A DNA stretch of 64,000 bases from the NCBI RefSeq assembly GCF_020150815.1, contig NZ_CP083723.1, positions 1,178,001-1,242,000 on the forward strand, written 5' to 3'. The stretch is from Haloprofundus salilacus (GTDB lineage: Archaea > Halobacteriota > Halobacteria > Halobacteriales > Haloferacaceae). The notes under the pieces were generated by a model. It did no database searches, was not told the DNA's origin, and saw only the letters and a program-made list of their open reading frames with translations. The position numbers were made by a program, and so were the translations under genes. Positions 598 through 20,482 of the stretch are shown in pieces; positions within the stretch are counted from its first letter, which is position 1, and every line of letters starts with the position of its first letter.

Positions 598-1863
598 TCA
601 GATTCCGCCGGTGGTCAGCGTGTCGATGAACCCCGGCAGCGACGTGGCGGCGAGGTAAATCGAGAGCAGCACGAGCATCGCGTTCACCAGTGCCAAGCGG
701 AGGCTATTCTTGTGCTCGCCCATCGTCTCCCGGTCGTTGACTGCCCAGAACAGCAACGCCGCGGCGATCGGGAGGCTGATGATGCCGTTGTACGCCGGAA
801 AGAGGATTATCATGTCGATGACGCTGAGTCCGGCGAACTGGTGGACCAGCGGCGAGAGGCAGCCGATGCCGACGCCGACAACGTAGATGAGCTTGAACTC
901 CCGACTGCTGGGGGTCGCGCTTCGGCCGCGAGCGTGTTGGACCAGGTACGACGGCGTCCACATTATCGGAATGATACTGTTGAACGCGGCGGCGATCGTC
1001 CCGAAAAGGAAGACGAACATCGCCCACCGGCCGAGCACGTCCGCGAGCGCTCGCCCTGGCGTGATGAACGTGTCGAGGTTCGTGTACCCTGCCGGGCGGA
1101 GCACCGCCGCCGCGACAACGAGGATGGCGATCGTAGTGACGCCGCCGACGAGATACCCCAGTCCGAGATCGCGGCGAACGGCCGGTAGGTCCGAGGCTCC
1201 TGTCCACCCCTTCTCGCCGACTAGATTCGATTCGAGAAAGAAGTTCGGCCACAGCGCCGTCGTTCCGACGATGGCGGCCGCGAGCGTCAGCGACCCGCCG
1301 GGAATCGACGGCACGAACCCGGACGCGATACCGGTCACCGAGGGCGCGCTCACGCCGGCGACGGTCACGTAGACGACGAGCAGTCCGAGCATCATCGCCG
1401 TCATGACGCGCTCGATTCCTTCGTAGTCCAAGACTCCGACTAAGATGGCGAGAACGCCGGTGACCACCGCGAGCGGTTGCCATCCGACAGCGCCGTCGAG
1501 GAGAATCGAGAGCCCCATTCCGACGGCCGCCGTGAGTTCGAGCGCCCACGCGACACATCCCGCCGAGAGAAGCACAGCCAGCAGTGTCGAGCTCGTTTTC
1601 CCCAGTTTGCGTCGGGCGAACTCCATCAAGGGTACACCGAAGATACCCAGACGTGCGCTCATGTCCTGCCCGATGAAACCGATGAGTGCACCACCGACGA
1701 CGGCCCAGATGAGCGCGTACCCGAACTTGACTCCGGCCTGACTCGCGATAAACACTGAGCCGGAGCCGAAGTAACTAGCAACCATCACGAACGCGAGACC
1801 GTACTTCTGGAAGAACCCCTTCGCCGTACTCCGGAGTCCACCAGTGTATGATCCGAATGACAT
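598..1863 (-). CDS. Nramp-related transporter lacking the metal-binding motifs
   Basis: A 421-residue integral membrane protein with about 11 hydrophobic helices and the overall pattern of the Nramp (SLC11) fold. The TM1 site that reads DPGN in metal transporters is FGSGSVF here (about residue 33), and the TM6 MPHN site reads [10 protein letters not shown]. The Asp, Met and His metal ligands are therefore absent. I chose ATG 1863 because the sequence before it in frame is basic and Ser-rich and unlike a transporter N-terminus. The family is certain; metal transport is doubtful, and an organic or other substrate is possible. It is a distant paralogue of the gene at 15648. Confidence 0.82.
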
Positions 1864-2080
1864 TTGTTGAGAACCGAGTATCTGCGTCGAACGAACTTTT
1901 CGGCACGATAACAGTCCGGATTCAGAGGGATTGTTCTGGTGCTTGTCAAAGAAAGCACGATGTTGAGTCGGCGCTGACGGTGCGTTCGAAGGGCGGTGAG
2001 GCGACTGCGCAGTCGGAGGCCGTTGCGGTCGGCAGCGGCGAGAAATCCGCGAGAAGAGACCACCGAGAAACGAACCGCGC

Positions 2081-3286
2081 TCAGAACGTCGAGATGTCGC
2101 CTTTGATGACCGATCGAGTGACATCGGTCACGTCGGCGAGTTCGCGGTCCACGATGGTTTCGACTTCGTCGCGAATCTCGTCGATGTCGACGCCCTCGTC
2201 GGTGACGACCTGCGCGTCCGCGACGTGGGGGTGGTCGATGGGGCGGCCGATCTGCGAGAGGAGTCGGACCTGCAGGTCGCGGATGCCGTCGACTTCGTCG
2301 ACGACGCTCTCTGCGATTTCCGTCGATAGTAGGTTGTATATCTTCCCGATGTGGTTGACGGGGTTCTTTCCGCTCGTCGCCTCCATGCTCATCGGGCGGT
2401 TCGGCGTGATGAGACCGTTGGCGCGGTTCCCGCGGCCAACGGAGCCGTCGTCACCCTGCTCAGCGCTCGTGCCGGTCGTCGTGAGGTAGATGGAGCCGTC
2501 CTCGTAGTCGTCGGCGGTGTTGACCTCGACGTTCACCTCGCGGTCGGTGCGCTCGCGCGCGAGACCGGCGACGAACTCCTGAACCCGGGTGACCGCGGCG
2601 TCGTAGGCGTCGAGATCGGCGACGTACGAGTCGACCATCGCGGCGGCGACGGTGATGTCTATCCGGTCGCCCTCACGCTTACCCATTATCTTCACGTCGG
2701 GACCGAGTTCGGGGTGGTCGGCGGCGTACGCGCCGTTGAGTTCGCGCTCGGCGGCGAGCACTATCTCCTCGGTTTCGGTCAGCGGCGCGTGACCGACGCC
2801 GAAACTCGTGTCGTTGGCCATCGGCACCTGTACCTCCTCCTCGCCGAACACGTCCTGCAGGTCGCCGGAGCCTTCGCCGAGTTTCACGTCGACGACGACG
2901 TCGCGGCCGTACTCCAGTTCCGGGATGTTCTCGTCGAGATACTCGCGGGCGGCAGACAGCGCCGTCGACCCGACGGGCAGTTTCTGGCCGTCGTACTCCT
3001 TGGTCGCGCGGCCGACGATGAGAATGTAGATGGGTTCGATGACCTCGCCGCCGCCGAAGGCGGGCGCGGCGGTTCCGGCGACCAACTGCGTCTCGTCGGT
3101 GTTGTAGTGGAGCACCTTGCCGACGCGGTCGAGATACAACTGGGAGAGCGCCCGCGAGACGCTCTCGGCGATGCCGTCACAGATGGAGTCCGGGTGACCG
3201 ATACCTTTCCGCTCGACGATTTCGACTTCCTGGTCCTCGACTGCGAGTCGGTCGATTCCCTCGACTCGAATGTTCCGGTCGCTCAT
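2081..3286 (-). CDS. mat: S-adenosylmethionine synthetase, archaeal type
   Basis: A 401-residue cytosolic enzyme that makes S-adenosylmethionine from methionine and ATP. It belongs to the archaeal MAT family, which is only remotely related to bacterial MetK. Support includes the N-terminal [18 protein letters not shown] segment (residues ~24-41), the substrate-site stretch [20 protein letters not shown] (~284-303), and [14 protein letters not shown] (~305-318). Length matches the family. It starts with ATG 3286 and stands alone between a longer gap (1864-2080) and the oppB-like gene. Confidence 0.97.
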
Positions 3287-14152: not shown

Positions 14153-14620
14153 TCAGTCTCCGAAGAGCGTCGAGGGACGCGCGTACTCGCTTCGGATGAG
14201 AATCTCGTCGTTGACAACGAGGTCATAGCTGTCGATGGTCTCTGCGATGCGAGTGATATCGTCGTTCGACGCGCCGACGACCTGCACGTGGATGTTTCCC
14301 TCGCCGGTCATCATCTCGAGGACGTTCACCACGCCGTCGACTTCGAATATCTTCTCGATGAGCGCGCTTCGATTGGCGATGGGTGCGGTACAGACGAACA
14401 GCACTCGAAGCGGTTGCCCGGCCTTCTCGTAGTCGATTTCGGTGTGATATCCCTTGATGATGCCGTTCGCCTCCAGTCGCCTGATTCGCTTTCCGACCGT
14501 GCTCGCCGACACCCCGACACGCTCGCTGATGTCCGCGTTCGTGTTGTTTCGTGCGTCATCCTGTAACGCGTGGAGAATTTCGCGGTCTACTGTATCTAAT
14601 TCGGCGTCGGTCACATACAA
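14153..14620 (-). CDS. Lrp/AsnC family transcription regulator
   Basis: A 155-residue regulator. The N-terminal HTH (residues ~6-55; ILHALQDDARNNTNADISER, then VSASTVGKRIRRLEANGIIKGY) is followed by a RAM/AsnC ligand-binding domain (~65-145; RVLFVCTAPI, NVLEMMTGEGNIHVQVVG). Such proteins sense amino acids or related metabolites as octamers. It starts at ATG 14620. The intergenic region before it contains a phased GTTCGA-word array shared with the divergent RHH gene. Confidence 0.93.
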   Translation of the reverse strand: MYVTDAELDTVDREILHALQDDARNNTNADISERVGVSASTVGKRIRRLEANGIIKGYHTEIDYEKAGQPLRVLFVCTAPIANRSALIEKIFEVDGVVNVLEMMTGEGNIHVQVVGASNDDITRIAETIDSYDLVVNDEILIRSEYARPSTLFGD

Positions 14621-14932: not shown

Positions 14933-15502
14933 ATGCCGACGAACCGGTTGACGATCTCGCTCGACGAGGAGGCGGAGGCGGCGCTCGACGACCTGGTCGG
15001 ACGGACCGACACGTCGCGAAGCGAGGTCGTCCGCCGGGCGCTAACGTTCTACGCCGCGAACTTCGAGGCGGCGACCGCCGACGCCGGGCCCAACCTCGAA
15101 GCGTACCACCAGTTGCTCTCCTCGGGCGAACACGTCCTGCTCGACGTGGACTTCCTGCACTGTTTTCTCGACTACGTCGAAGCCGAGGACGGCACGCCCG
15201 ACCCCGACTTTCTCGCCGCCGCCAACCGCGTCGCCGACTACCACGCCCACGAGTACGAACGGCGGTTCGTCTCTCTCGGCGAACTGCTCGACTGGCTCTC
15301 GTTCTGCGGATTTCTCACGGTCCGCCGGACCGAAGGGAGCGTCGACGGCCGCACCTACCACGTTGTCTTCCCCTCGGAGTCGGTCAAGTGGTTCATGCTC
15401 GGGTTCATCGACCGCTCCACCACCGACCTCTCGTTCGACCTCGCCATCAACGAGGGCGTCTCGAAGGTGCTGTTGACGGAGACGCGAAAGTCGAGAACGT
15501 AA
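14933..15502 (+). CDS. Ribbon-helix-helix (CopG-like) regulator with C-terminal domain
   Basis: A 189-residue protein. Residues ~4-45 (RLTISLDEEAEAALDDLVGR, then TSRSEVVRRALTFYAANF) form a CopG-type ribbon-helix-helix DNA-binding domain. Residues ~55-185 are a separate alpha/beta domain with LLSSGEHVLLDVDFLHCFLD and VFPSESVKWFMLGFIDRS, which I cannot name but which resembles the sensing domain of haloarchaeal RHH proteins. The phased array upstream is a candidate target. Confidence 0.8.
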   Translation: MPTNRLTISLDEEAEAALDDLVGRTDTSRSEVVRRALTFYAANFEAATADAGPNLEAYHQLLSSGEHVLLDVDFLHCFLDYVEAEDGTPDPDFLAAANRVADYHAHEYERRFVSLGELLDWLSFCGFLTVRRTEGSVDGRTYHVVFPSESVKWFMLGFIDRSTTDLSFDLAINEGVSKVLLTETRKSRT

Positions 15503-15647
15503 CGAGGACGCGACGGCGGGGAGCGGAGACACGACCGACGGAGCCGGCAGGGACGTTCACAATCGTTCATACTGGACGCGCATTCGGTGTTCGCCTGTCT
15601 CAACAACCCTTTTGAGGCGGAACGGGGACTGTGGCAGTGTATCTCGC

Positions 15648-16856
15648 ATGTCATTCGTACGCAGACTCCGTTCGATAGGTCCCGGCGCGATGGTCGCAGC
15701 GGCGTTCATCGGTCCGGGGACGGTAACGACGGCGAGCGTAACCGGCGCGCAGTTCGGCTACGCGCTCGTCTGGACGATCCTGTTTTCCATCGTCGCGACG
15801 ATAATCCTCCAGGAGATGAGCGCCCGGTTGGGTCTCGTCTCCCGAGAAGGACTCGGCGAGGCGCTGCGCAACCAGTTCGACAACGAGGTGGCCAAGTGGA
15901 CTTCCATCGTGCTCGTCGTCTCGGCCATCGGCGTCGGCACCGCCGCCTACGAGGCCGGGAACATCCTCGGCGGCGCGGCGGGGTTGGAGACGATTACAGG
16001 CGTGAGCGCGACGGTGTGGGGCGTCCTGATAGGTGTCGTCGCGGGCGCGCTCCTCTACACCGGCAAGTACAAGTTCATCGAGCGGGCGCTCGTCGGTCTC
16101 GTCGCGCTCATGGCCGTCTCGTTTCTCGCCTCGGCGGTGCTCATCGGTCCCGACCTCGGCGCGCTGGCGCTCGGCTTCGTCCCGGCCGTCCCCACCGGGT
16201 CGCTGGTTCTTATCACGGGTCTCATTGGGACGACCATCGTCGGCTACAACCTCTTTCTCCACGCGAGCAACGTCCAGGAACGCTGGGCCGGTCCCGGAGA
16301 GCTCTCGGAGTGTCGAACGGACACGGTGCTGTCCATCGTCGTCGGCGGACTCATCACCGTCGCCATCCTCGTGACGGCGGCCGCCGCGTTCCCCGTCGGC
16401 ACGGAGATAGACGACGTCGGCCAGATGGCCGAACAGCTCCGACCCATCGCCGGTCCGTACGCGACGTTGTTCTTCAGCATCGGCCTGTTCGCGGCAGGGT
16501 TCACGAGCGCGACGACCGCTCCGCTCGCGGGCGCGTACGCCACCGCGGGAGCGCTCGGCTGGGAGGCGGACCTCTCCGACACGAAGTTCCGCGCCGTCTG
16601 GGCGGTCATCCTCCTCGTCGGCGTCTCGTCGGTCCTCCTCGGCGGGAGTCCGGTGCAGATAATCCTGTTCGCACAGGTCGTCAACGGGGTCCTGCTCCCC
16701 ATCGTCGCCATCTTCCTCATCGTGGCGATGAACTCCGATTCGCTGCTCGGCGAGTACACGAACGGGACAACGGCAAACGTCCTCGGCGGCATCGTGACCG
16801 CAATCGTCGTCTGGCTCGGGATTCGGACGCTGCTCTCGGTGGCGGGGGTGCTCTGA
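15648..16856 (+). CDS. Nramp-related transporter, hyuAB-linked
   Basis: A 402-residue, 11-helix protein of the Nramp fold, starting MSFVRRLRSIGPGAMVAAAF at ATG 15648. The TM1 DPGN motif reads GPGTVT (residues ~22-27) and the TM6 MPHN motif reads VGYN in TTIVGYNLFLHASN (~196-209), so the acidic, Met and His metal ligands are replaced. Its TGA is immediately followed by the GTG of hyuA, so the three genes form one operon. I infer uptake of the HyuAB substrate or its product rather than a divalent metal. Confidence 0.85.
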   Translation: MSFVRRLRSIGPGAMVAAAFIGPGTVTTASVTGAQFGYALVWTILFSIVATIILQEMSARLGLVSREGLGEALRNQFDNEVAKWTSIVLVVSAIGVGTAAYEAGNILGGAAGLETITGVSATVWGVLIGVVAGALLYTGKYKFIERALVGLVALMAVSFLASAVLIGPDLGALALGFVPAVPTGSLVLITGLIGTTIVGYNLFLHASNVQERWAGPGELSECRTDTVLSIVVGGLITVAILVTAAAAFPVGTEIDDVGQMAEQLRPIAGPYATLFFSIGLFAAGFTSATTAPLAGAYATAGALGWEADLSDTKFRAVWAVILLVGVSSVLLGGSPVQIILFAQVVNGVLLPIVAIFLIVAMNSDSLLGEYTNGTTANVLGGIVTAIVVWLGIRTLLSVAGVL

Positions 16857-18875
16857 GTGGCCTCACGCATCGGCGTCGACGTGGGCGGCACGTTCACCGA
16901 CGTGGTCCTGCTGACCGACGACGGGTCGCTCGTCACTGCGAAAGTTCCCAGCACCGACGACCAGAGCGTCGGCGTGATGGAGGGCATCGAGAAAGCCTGC
17001 GCCGAAGCGGGGATCGACCCCGCCGACCTCGACACGTTCTCGCACGCGATGACGGTCTCCGTCAACGCGCTGCTCGAATCGAACGGCGCGAAGACGGCGC
17101 TCGTCACCACTGAGGGCTTCCGCGACGTGCTCGAAATCAGGCGACAAAATCGGCCGAGCCTCTACGATTTGGACGCCGAACTGCCCGAACCGCTCGTCCC
17201 GCGTCGCCGCCGCTTCGAGGTCGACGAGCGCGCGACCACCGAGGGAGTCGAACGCGCTGTCGACGCCGACGAGGTTCGCGAACTCGCCCGCGACATCGAC
17301 GCCTCGGGCGCCGAGAGCGTCGCCGTCTCGCTGCTCCACGCGTACGCAAACCCCGAGAACGAACGGGCCGTCACGGACGTCCTTCGGGAGGAACTCGACG
17401 TGCCGATTTCGGCCTCTCACGAGGTGCTCGCGGAGTTCCGTGAGTACGAGCGGACCTCCACGACCGCCGTCGACGCCTACGTCACCCCGGCCATCGACGC
17501 CTACGTCGGTCACCTCGAAGAGCGAGCGAGCGACGCGGGCGTGCCGACGCCGCGAATCATGCAGTCGAACGGCGGCATCGCGTCGGCTGAAACTGTCCGG
17601 GAGCACGCGGTGACGACGGCGCTCTCCGGACCGGCCGCGGGCGTCGTCGGCGCGGGCGCGACGGTCGAAGCCGCCGGTTCGCTCCGCGGTCTCGTCACCT
17701 TCGACATGGGCGGCACCTCCAGCGACGTGAGCCTCGTCCGCGACGGCGAGGTGGAGCGAACCACCGACGTCGAGATAAACGGCCACCCCATCCGCGTTCC
17801 GATGGTCGACGTACACACCGTCGGCGCGGGCGGCGGGAGCGTTGCGTGGGTCGACGCCGGGGGCGCGCTCCGCGTCGGTCCCGAGTCGTCGGGCGCGAAC
17901 CCAGGCCCGGCGTCGTACGGCCGCGGGGGCGAGAAACCCACCGTCACCGACGCGAACGTCGTCCTCGGCTACATCGGCGCCGACACTGCCCTCGGCGGGG
18001 AGCTCTCGCTCGACGTCGACGCCGCCCGCGAGGCGCTCTCGCGACTCGCCGACAAGGCGGACCTCGACGACGCGCTCGCCGCCGCACGGGGCGTCTACCG
18101 CATCGCCAACGCGAACATGACTCGGGCGATTCGCACCATCACCGTCGAACGCGGCCACGACCCCCGACAGTTCGGTCTCGTCGCGTTCGGCGGCGCGGGA
18201 CCGATGCACGCTACCGCCCTCGCCGACGACCTAGGGGTCGAGACGGTCGTCGTCCCTCGCGCGTGCGGCGTCCTCTCGGCGTACGGTCTTCTCGCCGCCG
18301 ACGAGAAGCACGACTCCGTCCGAACCGTGCGGACGCCGCTCGCCGACGTAGACCTCGACCGTGTCGAATCCGCGTACGACGACCTTCGGGCGGACGTGCT
18401 GGCCGACGTCGAGCGACCCGAAGACGCGACCGTCGACCGCGTCGGCGACCTCCGCTACGTCGGCCAGAGCTTCGAACTCTCCGTCCCCGTCGGGGGGTCG
18501 TTCGACGCCGAGGCGGTCGCCGACCGCTTCACCGCGGCGCACGAGGAAGCCTACGGCTACGCCCTCGACGACCCCGTCGAACTCGTCAACCTCCGCTCGA
18601 CGGCGACGGTCGAGCGCGACCCGCTCACCGTCGGATACGAGGGTGCGGACGACCCCGTTCGCGGAACGCGGGAGGCGTTCTTCGGATTCGGCGGCGACGG
18701 CGAGTTCCGCGAGACCACCGTCTACGACCGCGAGGCGTTCTCTCCGGGGACGACGTTCGACGGTCCCGCGGTTCTCGAACAGGACGAGAGCACCGCCGTC
18801 GTCCCGCCGACGTGGAGTGGAGAAGTCGACGTCGACGGCACCGTCGTCCTCACGAAAGGAGGTGAGAACCGATGA
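16857..18875 (+). CDS. hyuA: Hydantoinase/oxoprolinase subunit A
   Basis: A 672-residue ATP-binding subunit of the N-methylhydantoinase/5-oxoprolinase family. This family opens cyclic amides (hydantoin, 5-oxoproline) at the cost of ATP; some members are acetone or acetophenone carboxylases. The actin-like phosphate loop IGVDVGGTFTDVVLLTDD (residues ~5-22), RIMQSNGGIAS (~235-245), LVTFDMGGTSSDVSLV (~278-293) and GRGGEKPTVTDANVVLG (~356-372) are all present. The start is GTG 16857, abutting the previous stop. The 3' end overlaps hyuB by 4 nt. Confidence 0.93.
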   Translation: MASRIGVDVGGTFTDVVLLTDDGSLVTAKVPSTDDQSVGVMEGIEKACAEAGIDPADLDTFSHAMTVSVNALLESNGAKTALVTTEGFRDVLEIRRQNRPSLYDLDAELPEPLVPRRRRFEVDERATTEGVERAVDADEVRELARDIDASGAESVAVSLLHAYANPENERAVTDVLREELDVPISASHEVLAEFREYERTSTTAVDAYVTPAIDAYVGHLEERASDAGVPTPRIMQSNGGIASAETVREHAVTTALSGPAAGVVGAGATVEAAGSLRGLVTFDMGGTSSDVSLVRDGEVERTTDVEINGHPIRVPMVDVHTVGAGGGSVAWVDAGGALRVGPESSGANPGPASYGRGGEKPTVTDANVVLGYIGADTALGGELSLDVDAAREALSRLADKADLDDALAAARGVYRIANANMTRAIRTITVERGHDPRQFGLVAFGGAGPMHATALADDLGVETVVVPRACGVLSAYGLLAADEKHDSVRTVRTPLADVDLDRVESAYDDLRADVLADVERPEDATVDRVGDLRYVGQSFELSVPVGGSFDAEAVADRFTAAHEEAYGYALDDPVELVNLRSTATVERDPLTVGYEGADDPVRGTREAFFGFGGDGEFRETTVYDREAFSPGTTFDGPAVLEQDESTAVVPPTWSGEVDVDGTVVLTKGGENR

Positions 18876-20482
18876 GTTCTCCCGACGCCAAAATCGACGC
18901 AGTGACGCTCGAAATCGTCCGCAACCAACTGGAGGGCGTCGCCGACGAGATGGGGCAGGTGCTCATCACCTCCTCGTACTCGCCGAACATCAAGGAGCGC
19001 CGCGACTGCTCGACGGCGCTGTTCGACGCCGAGGGTCGACTCGTCGCGCAGGCCGAACACATCCCGGTCCACCTCGGCGCGATGCCCGCCTCCGTCGCGG
19101 CCATCCTCGACCGAGACCCGAAACCGGGGGACGTGTTCGTGCTCAACGACCCGTTCGAGGGCGGCACGCACCTGCCGGACGTGACGATGGTCTCGCCCGT
19201 CGCCGTCGACGGCGAGATTCTCGGCTACGCCGTCTCCCGCGCCCACCACGCCGACGTGGGCGGGATGACGCCCGGGAGTATGCCCGCTGGCGCGCGTGAA
19301 ATCTTCCAGGAAGGTCTCCGCCTGCCGCCCGTCCGACTCGTCTCGGAGGGCGACTTTGTCGACGACGTGATGAACCTCCTGTTGGCGAACGTCCGGAGTC
19401 CAAGCGAGCGACGCGCCGACATCCGCGCCCAAATCGCGGCCAACGACCGCGCCCAGTCTCGAATCTCGGACCTCGTCGCCGAACACGGCCGCGACCGCCT
19501 GCTCGCCGCCTTCGACACGGTCATCGACTACTCCCGACAGCGCATCACGGCCGAAATTGCCGACCTCCCGGACGGCACCTACCGGGCGACCGACGCAATG
19601 GAAGGCGACGGCGTGACGGACGACGACGTGCCCATCGAGGTCGAAGTCGAAGTCGACGGCAGCGAGGTCCGCGTCGACTTCTCAGGCACCGCAGACCAGG
19701 TCGCGGGCAACGTCAACGCGCCGCTGGCCGTCGCCAAGAGCGCGGTCTACTTCGTCATCCGCGCGGTGACCGACCCGGACATCCCGCCGAACCAGGGCTG
19801 TTACGACCCGATTTCGGTTTACGTCTCCGAGGGATCGCTCCTCAACCCCGTTCCGCCGGCGGCGGTCGTCGGCGGCAACGTCGAGACCAGCCAGCGCGTC
19901 ACCGACGTGGTGCTGACCGCGCTTGCGGACGCCGCCCCTGACCGCGTCCCCGCGCAGGGGCAGGGGACAATGAACAACCTCATCATCGGCAACCGCGAGG
20001 CGGGCGGCTTTACCTACTACGAGACCATCGCGGGCGGGTTCGGCGCGCGCCCGACCAAAGACGGGATGGACGGCGTCCAGGTCGGGATGACCAACACCCT
20101 GAACACGCCCGTCGAGGCGATGGAAGCCGAGTACCCGCTTCGCGTCGAACGCTACGCGCTCCGCCCGGACAGCGGCGGCGACGGCGAGTTCCGCGGCGGT
20201 CTCGGTATCGAACGCGCCGTCACCGTCGGCGTCGACGCCACCGTCTCGCTGCTTACCGAGCGACGACGCACCGCTCCTGCGGGCGTCGCCGGTGGCCAAC
20301 CGGGTGCAGTCGGCGAGAACCTCGTCGCCGACGAGTCGATTCCGGCGAAGACCACTCGGGAGATCTCCGCGGGAACGACGGTCACTGTCCGGACGCCGGG
20401 CGGCGGCGGCTACGGCGAACCCGACGACCGCGACCCCGAGGCGCGCGAACGCGACCGGACGGACGGGAAAACGAGCGAGTAG
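18872..20482 (+). CDS. hyuB: Hydantoinase/oxoprolinase subunit B
   Basis: A 536-residue partner of HyuA, starting at ATG 18872 in an ATGA overlap that implies coupled translation. Family markers include DAVTLEIVRNQLEGVADEMG (~7-26), NDPFEGGTHLPDVTM (~91-105), HHADVGGMTPGSMP (~126-139) and the late GGFGARPTKDGMDGVQVGMT (in parts, ~388-408). HyuAB-type enzymes are heteromers, and both are needed for ATP-dependent ring opening. The exact substrate is not set by sequence. Confidence 0.93.
   Translation: MSSPDAKIDAVTLEIVRNQLEGVADEMGQVLITSSYSPNIKERRDCSTALFDAEGRLVAQAEHIPVHLGAMPASVAAILDRDPKPGDVFVLNDPFEGGTHLPDVTMVSPVAVDGEILGYAVSRAHHADVGGMTPGSMPAGAREIFQEGLRLPPVRLVSEGDFVDDVMNLLLANVRSPSERRADIRAQIAANDRAQSRISDLVAEHGRDRLLAAFDTVIDYSRQRITAEIADLPDGTYRATDAMEGDGVTDDDVPIEVEVEVDGSEVRVDFSGTADQVAGNVNAPLAVAKSAVYFVIRAVTDPDIPPNQGCYDPISVYVSEGSLLNPVPPAAVVGGNVETSQRVTDVVLTALADAAPDRVPAQGQGTMNNLIIGNREAGGFTYYETIAGGFGARPTKDGMDGVQVGMTNTLNTPVEAMEAEYPLRVERYALRPDSGGDGEFRGGLGIERAVTVGVDATVSLLTERRRTAPAGVAGGQPGAVGENLVADESIPAKTTREISAGTTVTVRTPGGGGYGEPDDRDPEARERDRTDGKTSE

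Follow-up and report, generated by a model that had tools for sequence, protein, structure and literature searches.

What does a protein transport that has the fold of the Nramp metal transporters and lacks the side chains with which these bind their metal? This question is raised by a gene of the haloarchaeon Haloprofundus salilacus at positions 15648–16856 (forward strand, as for the other genes of this locus) of a stretch of 64,000 nucleotides from its 3.73-Mb genome (contig NZ_CP083723.1, positions 1,178,001 to 1,242,000); this stretch is referred to as the window, and its numbering is used throughout. The 402-residue product, referred to as the window protein, belongs to an Nramp-related clade named here the GPGT clade. 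The gene is preceded by a gene (14933–15502) for a 189-residue ribbon-helix-helix (RHH, CopG-type) DNA-binding protein, the probable regulator of the operon, and it is followed by hyuA (16857–18875) and hyuB (18872–20482), which encode the ATP-binding subunit and the metal-site, lactam-opening subunit of an ATP-dependent lactamase of the 5-oxoprolinase/hydantoinase family.

It is likely, with a probability of about two in three, that these four genes constitute a regulated operon for the uptake and hydrolysis of 5-oxoproline (pyroglutamate), the cyclised form of glutamate, and that the transporter imports this compound, probably as food, rather than a metal. We infer its substrate and the direction of transport from sequence comparisons and gene neighbourhoods. 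In the proposed mechanism, the RHH protein would bind a tandem TTCAYAC operator and control the nramp-hyuA-hyuB transcript, and the transporter, having the Nramp (LeuT-type) fold without the metal-ligating Asp, Asn and Met, would take up 5-oxoproline. HyuA would then phosphorylate the lactam with ATP, and the metal site of HyuB would hydrolyse the phosphorylated lactam to glutamate.

Gene neighbourhoods in haloarchaea and bacteria

The genes of the window operon are closely packed. The GTG start codon of hyuA at 16857 abuts the TGA stop codon of the transporter gene, and the ATG of hyuB at 18872 overlaps the stop codon of hyuA as ATGA, as had been noted in a preliminary description of this DNA. 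The gene coordinates of that description, and its motifs GPGT (for DPGN) and VGY (for MPH) in transmembrane segments 1 and 6 (TM1 and TM6), are also correct when checked on the sequence and on alignments. An in-frame TTG exists at 15612, and the orthologues begin at the ATG of 15648. The Nramp domain (PF01566, 338 bits) covers the full length of the window protein, HyuA matches PF05378, PF01968 and PF19278 (Hydantoinase_A, 319 bits; Hydant_A_N, 183 bits), HyuB matches Hydantoinase_B (PF02538, 695 bits), and the regulator matches RHH_1 (PF01402, 36 bits).

In haloarchaea, the linkage between the transporter gene and hyuA is far above chance. Orthologues with 63–100% identity occur in 21 of 119 genomes of the same family, with hyuA adjoining in all 21. 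In the named haloarchaeal loci, hyuA lies directly downstream on the same strand in 68 of 70, followed by hyuB in 65, and the RHH gene lies upstream within 1.2 kb in 62, these loci and genomes being related by descent, such that the counts are of non-independent events. The two exceptions are a contig end and a locus in which hyuAB lies 3 kb off in the opposite orientation. Many copies of the cassette are on megaplasmids, for example pNG700 of Haloarcula marismortui and pHME505 of Haloferax mediterranei, and others are chromosomal. Two copies per genome, having the same match coordinates, are seen in Haladaptatus pallidirubidus (loci L079 and L080) and in Haloterrigena sp. H1 (L127 and L128), the transporter gene of the latter being interrupted (two separated matches).

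The enzyme is found more widely than the transporter. A HyuA homologue is present in 117 of the 119 family genomes, with at least 60% identity in about 60, and the transporter stands alongside in only 21. Three congeners have a HyuA that is 88–91% identical and lack the orthologous transporter, and in the congener locus L230 an Lrp-type gene directly precedes hyuA, as expected of an empty site; an Lrp-type gene is also present upstream in the window, at 14153–14620. In locus L246 (6188–10495), the RHH gene directly precedes hyuAB with no transporter gene between them, and a creatininase-like gene follows hyuB; this arrangement would fit a loss of the transporter. In the divergent member L055 (54% identity), the RHH gene is kept and hyuAB is absent. 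Since HyuA is widespread and the transporter accompanies it in few genomes, the RHH gene, its operator and the transporter appear to be an uptake module that is added optionally to a common enzyme.

The bacterial relatives are informative about the substrate. Proteins with 45–61% identity to the window protein are encoded beside pxpABC and D-glutamate cyclase genes in Clostridia, Bacteroidota and some Actinobacteria. In Maledivibacter, Dethiosulfatibacter, Petromonas, a Clostridium bin and two Bacteroidota bins (53–59% identity), the genes of LamB/YcsF (PxpA), CT_C_D (PxpB) and CT_A_B (PxpC) directly adjoin the transporter gene, and most of these pxpABC loci also adjoin a gene of family PF07286; pxpABC neighbours are also seen in further Clostridia and Actinobacteria. 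PF07286 is the family of D-glutamate cyclase, and this enzyme produces 5-oxo-D-proline. In seven actinobacterial loci (L125, L131 and L205–L209; 56–60% identity), the transporter gene is followed by that of HyuA, and a D-glutamate cyclase gene precedes it in all except L207. The order in these six loci is D-glutamate cyclase, Nramp, HyuA, HyuB, where the hyuB genes of L125 and L131 fall beyond the contig end; this cassette suggests that D-glutamate is converted via 5-oxo-D-proline. PxpABC is an ATP-dependent 5-oxoprolinase (PMC13274462). Two unrelated lactam-opening systems thus alternate beside transporters of a single clade (support 100/98), with D-glutamate cyclase present in the PxpABC as well as in the HyuAB arrangement, and therefore 5-oxoproline would be the compound common to them.

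This alternation also bears on the claim, made in the preliminary description, that the transporter moves the substrate or product of HyuAB and not a metal. The claim is supported, and the alternation of PxpABC and HyuAB together with D-glutamate cyclase in four phyla narrows it to 5-oxoproline. The same description held that the link to the substrate would fall if the clade were as often found without hyuAB. In haloarchaea it is not, with hyuA present in 68 of 70 loci; among the Clostridia and Bacteroidota of the sample it is, as no hyuAB is seen there and pxpABC often is. The replacement of hyuAB by pxpABC in these bacteria strengthens the substrate link rather than refuting it. Further support for 5-oxoproline comes from the contrast with other Nramp-related groups: a HyuA, Pxp or YcsI gene lies within 1.5 kb in 39 of 51 GPGT loci, compared with 0 of 15 loci of the canonical DPGN type, 0 of 7 loci of GSGS paralogues and no locus of the NRMT-like type, in a set that was drawn by similarity to the GPGT clade, such that the percentages are not population estimates. 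The only other linked groups in this set are the YcsG clade, discussed below, and L166, a fragment of the GPGT clade.

An accident of haloarchaeal operon inheritance, in which the genes are adjacent with no functional tie, would be in agreement with the common descent of the 70 haloarchaeal loci. It is, however, most improbable when considering that both plasmid and chromosomal locations are found, that the same pairing exists in Actinobacteria, and that the transporter is paired with pxpABC in Clostridia and Bacteroidota.

Nramp fold, metal ligands and the YcsG clade

The AlphaFold2 model of the window protein (pLDDT 87) has the Nramp fold, as stated in the preliminary description, with TM-scores of about 0.84–0.88 to DraNramp and EleNRMT. 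In HMMER alignments to DraNramp and BfraNramp, the residues G22, T25 and V198 occupy the positions of the canonical Asp, Asn and Met, and Y200 occupies the position of the His. The unwound segment of TM1 is G22-P23-G24-T25 (15711–15722) instead of D-P-G-N, and that of TM6 is V198-G199-Y200-N201 (16239–16250) instead of M-P-H-N. The fold is therefore shared with the canonical MntH/Nramp proteins, but the ligands of the DPGN and MPH motifs are missing and the window protein is in a separate clade. These changes are preserved in 61 clade members from archaea and bacteria: G22, P23 and G24 are invariant, such that Gly stands in place of the TM1 Asp in all 61, and the residues at the places of the Asn and Met are also altered in all 61 (Thr in 60 and Ser in one; Val in 60 and Ile in one), the His position being Tyr in 60 and His in one. 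Residue 199 is Gly in haloarchaea and mostly Pro in the bacterial members, and the TM3 acidic residue of canonical Nramps (E134 of DraNramp) is Asn in 58 and Asp in three, at a position read off the alignment. The change of the three ligand positions in the whole clade also argues for an organic substrate such as 5-oxoproline.

The preliminary description used the missing ligands as an argument against metal transport. The loss itself is clear, but it is insufficient alone, as NRMT proteins without the Asn and Met still move metal. EleNRMT, a Mg transporter from a group discovered through Mg riboswitches (PMC4072509), resembles the window protein in fold (TM-score 0.88, with 30% of the structurally aligned residues identical). 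It differs in having a DAGG-type TM1, in which the Asp is retained in the same alignment, and in belonging to a separate clade (100/100); the window protein has neither this motif nor a place in this clade. As EleNRMT retains the TM1 Asp, the GPGT clade has moved further away from the ligation of metal than NRMT has.

Weaker structural matches of the model are ApcT, LAT1 and AdiC, which are amino-acid carriers of the same superfamily, and the hydantoin carrier Mhp1. In APC amino-acid carriers, the Gly-rich break of TM1 binds the carboxylate group of the substrate via backbone amides. By analogy with the Gly-x-Gly loops of these carriers, the GPGT segment would probably hold a carboxylate by its backbone amides. 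Some carriers with the APC fold are antiporters, and AdiC and LAT1 are two of the weaker matches, which brings in the possibility of export of the product (glutamate or some other amino acid) by the transporter, or of its exchange against the substrate. This is very unlikely, since a catabolic operon normally needs import, no sign of export is seen in this analysis, and loss of the transporter PxpT blocks the use of external 5-oxoproline in Corynebacterium glutamicum (PMC13274462).

PxpT is a precedent for import of 5-oxoproline. This Nramp homologue is 50% identical to Bacillus subtilis YcsG and is essential for growth of C. glutamicum on 5-oxoproline, as shown also by complementation with the gene (PMC13274462); that a transporter of another clade is needed for this growth supports the same substrate for the window protein. 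An Nramp-type 5-oxoproline transporter has thus already been reported in the YcsG/PxpT clade, and the window clade is a separate variant. Since its bacterial relatives are neighbours of pxpABC, we considered the window protein as an orthologue of YcsG/PxpT and rejected this, as it is only 21% identical to YcsG (Foldseek, 9a52), compared with 62% for L174, a Clostridia protein from a pxpA-nramp-pxpB-pxpC operon that is itself 21% identical to the window protein. L174 is part of a second PxpABC-linked group (L168–L175; 20–21% identity to the window protein), which is the YcsG clade; YcsG was compared via its identity to 9a52, and PxpT and PxpG are grouped with YcsG on the basis of identities reported in PMC13274462. 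In the phylogenetic tree, the GPGT clade, with the window protein inside, has support of 100/98, and the YcsG-like, canonical DPGN and NRMT-like groups each have 100/100. The branches between clades are very long (near 5 for the YcsG clade), such that the branching order and a sisterhood of the two 5-oxoproline-linked clades are unsure. The window protein is in a separate Nramp-related clade, in which no characterised member was found.

YcsG, PxpT and Clostridioides difficile PxpG share with the window protein the Nramp fold, the Gly-Pro-Gly of TM1 and the Gly-Tyr of TM6 (motifs seen in L168–L175), the absence of the Asp, Asn and Met side chains and the linkage to 5-oxoprolinase genes, the latter being observed for the bacterial members of the GPGT clade, beside pxpABC and D-glutamate cyclase, and deduced for the window protein from the presumed substrate of its hyuAB. 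Pairing with HyuAB, in archaea and Actinobacteria, is seen for the window clade and not for the YcsG clade. At the level of the operon, the pxpTABC and pxpAGBC operons likewise combine a regulator, an Nramp-type transporter and an ATP-dependent 5-oxoprolinase, but the window operon has another enzyme, another transporter clade and an RHH instead of a GntR (PxpR) regulator. No paper combining "Nramp" and "hydantoinase" was found in a literature search, and nothing on this operon was found in the literature on haloarchaeal 5-oxoproline or hydantoinase.

YcsG is also reported to be a Mn2+ importer, whose overexpression raises cellular Mn2+; an mntH mntA ycsG triple mutant could be obtained only with an extra copy of ycsG, and the same authors raised the possible polarity of an earlier ycsG deletion (PMC10448178). 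These data, together with the conserved metal site of HyuB and the movement of Mg2+ by EleNRMT without the canonical Asn and Met, would be in agreement with a transporter that provides a metalloenzyme, HyuB or in bacteria PxpA, with Mn2+ or Zn2+, the linkage reflecting supply of a cofactor. Such a role is nonetheless quite unlikely: Gly, Thr and Val replace the Asp, Asn and Met in practically every one of the 61 members, even the Asp retained in NRMT being gone, many HyuAB copies manage without the transporter, and it is for growth on 5-oxoproline itself that PxpT is needed (PMC13274462).

The source genome has only two Nramp-family genes (PF01566), neither of which is a canonical DPGN type, and therefore Mn2+/Fe2+ uptake must use other means. 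The second gene (598–2124, reverse strand) is also non-canonical, having FGSGS in TM1 and TTALWPNF in TM6; its GSG is reminiscent of APC amino-acid carriers, and its orthologues in other haloarchaea are about 60–90% identical. A functional link of this paralogue to metK was dropped, as the adjacency is confined to the genus.

The HyuAB enzyme and the operator

HyuAB has the domains and the ATP and metal motifs of the ATP-dependent lactamase (hydantoinase/oxoprolinase) family. The ATP motifs of HyuA are intact (DVGGTFTD, corresponding to DxGGTxTD, DMGGT and GANPGP), and HyuB has the Asp and the His-x-x-Asp/His of the metal site, as defined in PMC8453981. These motifs are shared with OplA, HyuAB and CapAB; the window HyuB differs from CapB, the caprolactamase subunit, in the absence of the vicinal Cys-Cys disulfide, and the window operon differs in pairing with an Nramp-type transporter. 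The retention of the catalytic motifs without the caprolactamase signature is in agreement with 5-oxoproline as substrate. PxpA is absent from the source genome and from 107 of the 119 family genomes, which leaves HyuAB for this reaction, such that it is probably the enzyme that serves these archaea as 5-oxoprolinase.

The regulatory region of the transporter gene points in the same direction. Upstream of the gene there is a tandem repeat of TTCACAA (15556–15562) and TTCATAC (15566–15572) with a 10-bp period, and this operator recurs in haloarchaeal promoters. In 48 dereplicated promoters there are 74 TTCAYAC sites, compared with 2.6 (standard deviation 1.6) in dinucleotide shuffles; 44 of the 48 have at least one, only seven sites are on the reverse strand, and the spacing between neighbours is exactly 10 bp in 27 of 30 pairs. 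A conserved inverted repeat, which was also sought in the transporter promoters, was not found. The motif is absent before 18 of 20 hyuA genes without the transporter, and the RHH gene itself is seldom preceded by it (6 of 68). The tandem copies sit upstream of a conserved TATA-like element, CAACCCTTTT (15604–15613), which is a putative promoter element; the overlapping 8-mers AACAACCC, CAACCCTT, ACAACCCT and AACCCTTT recur in 19–25 of 64 promoters. Helically phased direct repeats fit the binding of an RHH protein, and the regulator may contact this operator. The RHH gene is retained both in L055, without hyuAB, and in L246, without the transporter. In general, however, the operator and the RHH gene accompany the transporter and not lone hyuAB, which argues further for a regulated uptake system for 5-oxoproline.

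Several observations weigh against 5-oxoproline as the substrate. None of the neighbours considered above is found within 1.5 kb in 12 of the 51 sampled GPGT members, and two distant subclades adjoin other enzymes, named by eye (agmatinase-like and racemase-like proteins in one, creatininase-like in the other), such that the substrate may vary within the clade. The nearest precedent, YcsG, is also reported to raise cellular Mn2+, as described above (PMC10448178). NCBIfam places HyuA nearest to caprolactamase (535 bits), the two caprolactamase scores, 535 and 279 bits, being below the cut-off of 1000 bits, and the nearest PDB homologues are N-methylhydantoinase (E-values 5e-142 for HyuA and 5e-84 for HyuB), followed by caprolactamase. 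Family membership, or sequence alone, does not therefore fix 5-oxoproline. It follows that import and opening of another cyclic amide (hydantoin, N-methylhydantoin or another lactam) must be weighed, as the enzyme family is known for diverse lactams (PMC8453981) and related subclades lie beside creatininase-like, racemase-like or agmatinase-like proteins. This alternative is unlikely, as the PxpABC and D-glutamate cyclase genes beside the same transporter clade favour 5-oxoproline, the caprolactamase Cys-Cys is absent, and there is no hydantoin racemase or carbamoylase in the window operon.

In the distant loci L219, L249 and L220 (40–45% identity to the window protein), the neighbours are either agmatinase-like and Asp/Glu-racemase-like proteins, together with a regulator of the IclR type, or a creatininase-like protein. 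The SAR324 member L124 (7423–8193) has a carbon-nitrogen hydrolase (PF00795) and a GntR-like regulator nearby instead of pxpABC or hyuAB.

Implications for the Nramp family and for haloarchaea

The NCBIfam equivalog model NF037982, "Nramp family divalent metal transporter", accepts the ligand-less window protein (95.7 bits, cut-off 50), and therefore the name of a metal transporter spreads to the whole clade. Recent structural work likewise describes Nramp-related proteins as likely metal transporters, mostly of unknown specificity (PMC13060092). If the GPGT clade imports 5-oxoproline, a large number of archaeal and bacterial proteins called "metal transporters" carry the wrong name, and the disputed question of whether YcsG moves Mn2+ or 5-oxoproline can be put to a second, only distantly related group.

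Gly-Pro-Gly in TM1 and the loss of the metal side chains are features of both clades with a link to 5-oxoproline. It is possible, although this is put forward tentatively and is rather less probable than not, that transport of organic solutes is widespread among deep-branching, non-canonical groups of the Nramp (SLC11) superfamily, that at least two clades (YcsG/PxpT and GPGT) import 5-oxoproline via such a TM1 break, and that metal transport is a later specialisation. If so, the Mn2+ role claimed for YcsG would be indirect.

5-Oxoproline forms spontaneously from glutamate and glutamine. With the proposed operon, haloarchaea would gain a defined route for using this compound. The presence of the cassette in culturable species, on pHME505 of Haloferax mediterranei and on pNG700 of Haloarcula marismortui, makes direct testing of this route possible.

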